Below, in pieces: positions 1-383 of a stretch of DNA of 64,000 bases. Under the pieces are notes generated by a model. It ran no database searches. It had not been told where the DNA came from and saw only the letters and a list, made by a program, of their open reading frames with translations. The DNA lies in assembly GCA_002841155.1 (NCBI GenBank), contig PHEH01000009.1, forward strand, positions 121,046-185,045. Reading direction: 5' to 3'. The position numbers were made by a program, and so were the translations under genes. Position 1 is the first letter of the stretch. Every line of letters starts with the position of its first letter. Source of the stretch: Alphaproteobacteria bacterium HGW-Alphaproteobacteria-18 (GTDB lineage Bacteria > Pseudomonadota > Alphaproteobacteria > Caulobacterales > Hyphomonadaceae).

Positions 1-383
1 GTCGCCCCGGAGGATGGGAGCGGCTGGGGCTAACGGTCCAGCCTCTCTCTAGGGACGTTGATCCAGGCAAGCCGGACCAAAAAGCCGGTAGAGAATCCCG
101 ACTGGCCCGCCTCTCTAACGAGAGGTCACGAGAGTGAGGGTAAGTGGTCAAGGCCTGGCAGCGCCGAAGTCATCCCGAAAACTGCCCGAAACTCCGGGGG
201 CAGCGCGGCGGGCGAAAGCGCCCAAACCGCAACACTTTTACCTTTCCGGGCGCCGCGGCGCCCGCCGCGCAGGCTCCACTCGGGAGCCACCCGAACTGCT
301 CCGACCCCGGATGGCAATGCCAGTCCGGATACAGCCCTATGGAGGTACGCCCCTCCCCTGCGTTACCCCGAAGGAAGAAAGAT
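1..383 (+). ncRNA. Candidate structured RNA (class unassigned; omega-RNA/HEARO-like layout possible)
   Basis: No convincing protein covers this stretch, but it is dense in pairable segments. Local hairpins: 22-27 with 38-43, 110-115 with 120-125 (TAAC loop), 182-187 with 198-203, 205-208 with 227-230 enclosing 210-213 with 220-223, a perfect 18-nt palindrome at 247-264, and 344-350 with 360-367. A long-range helix joins GGTAAGTG (139-146) to CACTTTTACC (233-242) and closes a multibranch domain. The last hairpin ends just before a GGAAGAAAG ribosome-binding site and an ATG at 385. A long folded RNA ending at an ORF start is the layout of HEARO/IscB omega-RNAs, but no IscB follows and I cannot match the family consensus by eye. 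The strand is inferred from this layout. The 5' end may lie outside the window. Confidence 0.4.

Follow-up and report, generated by a model that had tools for sequence, protein, structure and literature searches.

The element and its neighbours at the truB locus

The window analysed here is a stretch of 64,000 nucleotides from a Hyphomonadaceae assembly (GCA_002841155.1, contig PHEH01000009.1), and its bases 1 to ~344 make up the greater part of one copy of a dispersed folded-RNA element of ~400 nt, lying on the + strand. The first-pass annotation of this DNA had described a strongly folding, hairpin-rich stretch that adjoins truB and ends at a ribosome-binding site and an ATG, and this is borne out by our analysis: the element is followed by a spacer, the sequence AAGGAAG, which resembles a ribosome-binding site, and a mini-ORF (385 to 555, + strand) encoding an Arg-rich protein of 56 amino acids (MTRRRRVRRF...), whose stop abuts that of the convergent truB at 556 (556 to 1497, - strand; Pfam TruB_N). 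The extent given there, an RNA of ~380 nt spanning 1-383, has to be revised; the folded stretch stands, but the element begins left of base 1 and its homology to most other copies ends near 344, with a single copy of the own genome matching to 353 by BLAST. Directly left of the window is a 23-N assembly gap (L009 2478-2500), and extension in that direction, which the first-pass annotation had proposed, located the missing 5ˊ hairpin in the gap. The window copy is therefore without its first ~50 nt, and the missing hairpin (P2/P2b) is the best-covarying part of the family.

The remaining parts can be followed along the + strand. The core closing helix (4 to 201) pairs GCCCCGGAG at 4-12 with CTCCGGGGGC at 192-201, as predicted by RNAalifold from 16 other full copies, and variants of it such as CGCCCCGGA/TTCGGGGCG in L078 were read by eye, outside any formal count. 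Inside it, hairpin P3 (22 to 43) is formed by GGCTGG at 22-27 and CCAGCC at 38-43; six of its seven pairs show both-side changes in the 5ˊ-domain alignment A5 (see below), in which 78.6% of its cells are paired, and a kissing contact is proposed between its loop TAACGG (31-36) and the GUACCGUU loop in the missing hairpin. The core is followed by a long GC hairpin (203 to 270), with an outer helix of 203-214 and 259-270, an inner helix of 218-223 and 248-253, and a variable loop; in alignment A6 the outer helix is paired in 100% of cells and is nearly invariant, so that it shows little covariation. Next come GGCTCC (272 to 277), the 3ˊ strand of a long-range helix whose partner is a bulge GGAGCC in the missing 5ˊ hairpin, and the terminal hairpin CCGGATGGC-GCCAGTCCGG (307 to 328), which is seen in most copies and is lost or replaced in L067, L072 and L078. 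The right end is the 3ˊ tail ACAGCCCTATGGAG (331 to 344), read from alignments and from a site at an Smr gene where the flank match stops at the tail; other subfamilies have GTGCTGG or GTGCAGGAGG in its place.

The own genome (G000) gave ten BLAST matches, the window's and nine further ones, which represent eight copies; the seven further copies match at 87-100%, and four of them lie at contig ends, as is expected because repeats break assemblies. Full copies exist (e.g. L010 20-440), and the one-contig genome G007 holds six full copies and one partial copy.

A family of Arg-rich proteins behind some copies

A profile built from six mini-ORF proteins was searched in 42 genomes of the genus and gave 13 matches in 11 of them. 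Nine, the window's included, are convincing (E <=3.4e-8), and each of the nine is located 3ˊ of an element copy, or of an apparent remnant in the case of G028; the distance between element and mini-ORF is ~170 nt in G034. The proteins are Arg-rich and 56-82 amino acids long, and no convincing match to them was found in Pfam, PHROGs or NCBIfam. In four pairs of mini-ORFs, three of which share sequences and none of which includes the window's, dN is lower than dS (0.023/0.135, 0.093/0.349, 0.119/0.497 and 0.099/0.180), suggesting that the protein is or was selected at those loci. The mini-ORF noticed in the first pass is thus a member of a small family that looks coding at other loci, but the window's own ORF, with 56 amino acids, is shorter than its homologue at this site in G007 (64 aa) and is possibly in decay. 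The G011 mini-ORF is interrupted by a stop, and few of the listed element copies carry the ORF at all.

Comparative evidence for a folded RNA

The structural case rests on 16 chosen rows, alignment A5, and on the count for the long-range helix. A5 comprises 16 diverse 5ˊ domains picked by us, on which a structure consisting of P2, its inner stem and P3 was written down by hand. This structure pairs 87.0% of cells, compared with 72.6% in shuffled alignments and 39-53% when the structure is slid along the alignment; both-side changes occur in 14 of the 20 pairs, compared with 8.7 (shuffled) and 6-9 (slid); and the covariation score is 0.481, compared with 0.202 and 0.108-0.173, respectively. Covarying pairs, which the first-pass annotation had wanted sought across homologues, were therefore found.

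The long-range helix joins the bulge (GGAGCC or GGGGCC) to a complementary segment near the 3ˊ end (GGCTCC, GGCCCC, GGCCCT etc.). All six pairs can form in 44 of 47 parsed distinct copies, the misses being L071, L072 and L148, and with shuffled partners the number is 39.0±1.4, with 0 of 2000 shuffles reaching 44; counted on Watson-Crick pairs alone, the values are 246 of 282 and 236.8±2.9, with 5 of 2000 shuffles reaching 246. Since the 47 copies are related, these counts are not independent tests. A kissing contact between the GUACCGUU loop and the P3 loop UAACGG may exist as well: the two are complementary, L072 preserves the complementarity by a double change (ACCCTT/AAGGG), and the contact is broken in L082. 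A different long-range helix, between GGTAAGTG (139-146) and CACTTTTACC (233-242), had been put forward in the first pass and is rejected here; its exact 3ˊ arm occurs in six of the eight own-genome copies and in none of 14 checked copies elsewhere, and its 5ˊ arm is unchanged in close copies.

Single-sequence folding is a weak witness. Against 100 shuffles, window bases 1-383 do modestly better than chance (z -2.5, matched by none of the shuffles), and L138 on its own does not stand out (z -1.7, matched by seven); the L184 fold (z -5.7) takes in downstream flank and was set aside. Folding of a 24-copy alignment (A1) gave 30 pairs, 13 of which change on both sides in one or more sequences, and a covariation term of only -0.52, a low value that reflects the module differences in the middle domain. 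This domain consists of exchangeable modules, and module exchange could be followed by eye among the eight copies of G027. Loops of some copies (L061, L063, L064 and L072) contain REP-like palindromes (GATCAG-AATCGCACTGCGATT and relatives), as does module B of L147.

In the 5ˊ domain, G-U combinations far outnumber A-C ones (41 and 7 in A5), indicating the + strand as the RNA strand. The 3ˊ domain shows no such bias (12 and 11) and little covariation, being too conserved in A6. By comparison, then, the element is a genuine structured RNA of the + strand. These data bear directly on the alternative that it is a DNA-level repeat, a MITE or a cluster of REP sequences, that folds as RNA only by accident. 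In favour of that explanation are the REP-like palindromes in and next to copies and the occurrence of the terminal hairpin and tail apart from the rest. Against it stand pairs that change on both sides in a layout of several stems that is not palindromic, the long-range pairing, and the excess of G-U over A-C in the 5ˊ domain, unexpected for a DNA hairpin, and we consider it quite improbable.

A box (A/T)ATCC(A/G) lies ~50 nt 5ˊ of the bulge, at a nearly fixed distance, in 50 of 54 copies and is perhaps a promoter or the end of the element. A CATACT-like hexamer is sometimes present 18 nt beyond the box. A scan of one copy found no sigma-70 promoter or terminator.

Genomic sites

The element adjoins truB, convergent each time, in 15 genomes (G000, G007, G010, G011, G023, G028, G041, G001, G014, G020, G021, G024, G039, G040 and G031), and in a sixteenth (G019) it lies within 1.5 kb of truB. 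The remark in the first-pass annotation that this is the place where rpsO normally follows truB was sound: rpsO is found 1.7 kb past truB in G040, G024 and G011, with the element between the two genes, and at 248-832 nt after truB in the element-free G030, G008, G004, G029 and G015. The truB-site copies are likely to be related by common descent, repeated insertion being the alternative.

Eleven sites were annotated, and the 3ˊ neighbour is convergent at nine of them (truB, transglutaminase, ABC1, HMGL, a Cys/Met enzyme, phosphoribosyltransferase, YmdB, sigma-54 and Smr) and co-directional at two (NAD synthase and glutaredoxin). This arrangement speaks against a role in cis as a 5ˊ leader of the riboswitch or attenuator type, whether for the mini-ORF or for whichever gene comes next. 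Such a role would account for the Shine-Dalgarno-like tail, for the mini-ORF 3ˊ of nine copies or remnants and for the sense position ahead of the NAD synthase and glutaredoxin genes, but with the next gene convergent at most annotated sites and the ORF present behind few copies we regard it as very unlikely. At the glutaredoxin site of G007 (L047 2147-2590), an ATG in the 3ˊ tail of the element is in frame with the glutaredoxin gene and could lengthen its N-terminus.

Distribution within and beyond Hyphomonas

Two models, R1 for the 5ˊ part and R2 for the 3ˊ part, were searched in the 42 genomes of the genus, which was taken as Hyphomonas. R1 gave 77 matches in 30 genomes, with one to eight per genome; R2 matched in 33 genomes, only weakly in G006, G026 and G032, and with a maximum of nine in G019. 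Twelve genomes are without an R1 match and nine without an R2 match, and near-complete genomes are among them. In an order-wide search, 30 of 398 genomes matched, 27 of them inside the genus and three outside at E 0.001 to 0.006, and BLAST across the family found two marginal matches, both in one other genus. When named genomes were scanned for a pattern, 26 stretches were returned, 16 of which are titled Hyphomonas (H. jannaschiana VP2 included, which was taken as G005 and has three R1 matches); BRH_c29 and DE15.006, both within the genus, also carry real copies, and the other eight stretches hold little besides the pattern (R1 <=26.6 bits, no R2). No copies were found in plasmids, phages or viral contigs. 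As far as searched, the element appears restricted to Hyphomonas, and the outside matches are unconvincing.

The distribution bears on the explanation that the RNA is the product of a host non-coding RNA gene at home in the truB-rpsO gap and acting in trans, extra copies of which arose by ordinary duplication and gene conversion as in multi-copy rRNA genes. Several relatives carry a single old copy, which would fit a host gene equally well. The convergent placement beside truB in 15 genomes and the homogenisation of copies described below agree with a host gene. So does the fact that, among the 13 genomes with exactly one R1 match, the truB copy is that match in seven. In the other six (G010, G012, G018, G025, G036 and G038) the single copy lies elsewhere, which does not suit a gene at home beside truB; G010 has in addition an R2 match that adjoins truB. 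The lack of R1 in 12 and of R2 in nine of the 42 genomes, near-complete ones included, and the presence of a copy at the very end of an Smr gene also count against this explanation, which we think rather unlikely.

Comparison with known RNA families and mobile elements

The whole window was scanned against Rfam 15 at the gathering cut-off with no match, HEARO (RF02033) and the group I and group II introns included. At E up to 10, window bases 1-700 gave three chance-like matches, none of them in the element and none to HEARO, and at E up to 1, five loci of the family gave no HEARO or intron match; the only sub-threshold match there was to the Brucella sRNA CI153 in L147, with 29.5 bits against a cut-off of 137. 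Among the possibilities raised in the first pass, a new RNA class is supported by this result together with the covarying family. A group I or group II intron, which the first pass had listed for checking, is rejected for lack of a match to the intron models.

The first pass had also pointed to a solo HEARO/IscB omega-RNA. HEARO is a structured RNA of some hundred nucleotides with an ORF behind it, present in several copies per genome, many of which are ORF-less, and the element resembles it in these respects. It differs in that the HEARO model does not match, no IscB was found, the ORF is tiny (56-82 aa), Arg-rich and matches no family, and the sites are mostly gene 3ˊ ends. The RRXRR domain of IscB was detected in none of the 42 genus genomes, in a weak search that was equally silent on all 14 controls. 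A solo omega-RNA or a remnant of one is largely refuted and in our judgement hardly credible.

Other candidates for a mobilising enzyme were sought in the same 42 genomes. Reverse transcriptase (PF00078, RVT_1) is present in six and Y1 transposase (PF01797, Y1_Tnp) in nine, four of them above its cut-off; neither is found in G000, G007, G019 or G023, and none of IscB, Y1 transposase and reverse transcriptase tracks the distribution of the element. The element is like the ORF-less group II introns in being a mobile-type structured RNA without its own enzyme, and unlike them in having no Rfam intron match, in a genus where reverse transcriptase is confined to six of 42 genomes.

REP/BIME, ERIC and Correia sequences and MITEs are intergenic, multi-copy and non-coding and lie near gene 3ˊ ends. 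The element shares their intergenic, multi-copy, non-coding character and their placement near gene 3ˊ ends and has REP-like hairpins mixed in, but it is a multi-stem covarying RNA architecture of ~400 nt rather than one palindrome. The ornate large bacterial RNAs OLE, GOLLD and ROOL are described as large, complex and conserved, with unknown function (PMC12286853). The element is likewise a large, complex and conserved RNA, and it differs in being genus-restricted as searched, in reaching up to about nine copies per genome and in having no Rfam match. What is unusual is a dispersed non-autonomous element that is a large covarying RNA. No description of a non-coding or structured RNA from Hyphomonas, of intergenic repeats of this kind or of a truB-rpsO RNA turned up in searches of an open-access library; one paper tabulates REP counts for H. 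jannaschiana (PMC12306157).

Presence, absence and exchange of copies

One site offers a comparison of occupied and empty states. G041 and G005 share a copy at the end of a convergent gene with an Smr domain, and the site is empty in five relatives (G001, G020, G021, G039 and G040), whose flank matches stop at the same base. The junction is the 3ˊ tail of the element. The Smr protein ends in WYVFLRQA* in the five empty relatives and in WYVFLRAST* in the occupied genomes; the former have 96-142 bases of other spacer in place of ~620, and ~100 bases of the empty site are absent from the occupied one. By eye, no terminal inverted repeats or target duplication were noticed, and the right junction is sharp whereas the left is not. 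G024 and G014, two of seven relatives with both flanks at this site, have a hairpin and a GTGCTGG tail like the 3ˊ end of the element with the rest absent (R2 E 0.13 and 0.08), and because of these an old insertion followed by loss in the five empty species has to be weighed against a recent gain. An insertion, as considered in the first pass, is plausible, given the dispersed copies and a site that two species have filled and five lack; the hairpin in G024 and G014 slightly reduces the weight that we give to a mobile origin. The terminal hairpin with a GTGCTGG-like tail also stands alone at L211 and L219 (Smr site) and in short matches of G039 and G017, and these may be remnants or a separate REP.

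Many sites are common to several species, which suggests that most copies are old. Nearest neighbours were read from a tree for 21 copies from G000, G007, G023 and G011, of which eight are incomplete and some lack an orthologue in that tree. Seventeen of the 21 have their nearest copy within their own genome, and none has it at the orthologous site. Judged by these trees of related copies, the sequences are homogenised within genomes. The left and right neighbours of copies are paired differently between species, suggesting that copies act as breakpoints of recombination (inversion or translocation).

Proposed nature and spread of the element

Our preferred explanation, to which we give about an even chance, is that of a non-autonomous element of mobile origin confined to Hyphomonas. 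Its body would be a structured-RNA gene of ~400 nt, and some copies have a gene for an Arg-rich protein behind them. The RNA would be transcribed from the + strand, perhaps starting from the (A/T)ATCC(A/G) box, and would fold into a bulged 5ˊ hairpin, P3, a modular core, a GC-rich hairpin and a terminal hairpin, held together by the long-range helix and perhaps a kissing loop; the folded RNA itself would be the object of selection. An enzyme supplied elsewhere may use this RNA, possibly with the small basic protein as a partner, to insert the element next to the 3ˊ ends of genes. Afterwards, gene conversion would keep the copies alike, and recombination between copies would rearrange the chromosome.

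A bolder extension is that the element represents a new class of mobile element, in which a pseudoknotted RNA of ~400 nt and a small basic RNA-binding protein bring about RNA-dependent spread to gene ends, followed by the behaviour of a multi-copy RNA gene (concerted evolution and rearrangement hot spots); this is speculative, and we think it unlikely. Large structured bacterial RNAs have been a frequent source of new biochemistry, and in the present case a structured RNA is connected, within one genus, with dispersal of copies, with gene conversion and with rearrangement of the chromosome. It is recurrent and covarying, it occurs in cultured species such as H. jannaschiana, and it is single-copy in some, so that its expression, function and mobility are directly testable.

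One copy carries other DNA within it. At the glutaredoxin locus of G011 (L065 1878-4266), the core of the element contains an insert of 2.4 kb with a SocA/Panacea-type antitoxin gene and three other ORFs that have no Pfam match; the insert may be cargo or a nested insertion.
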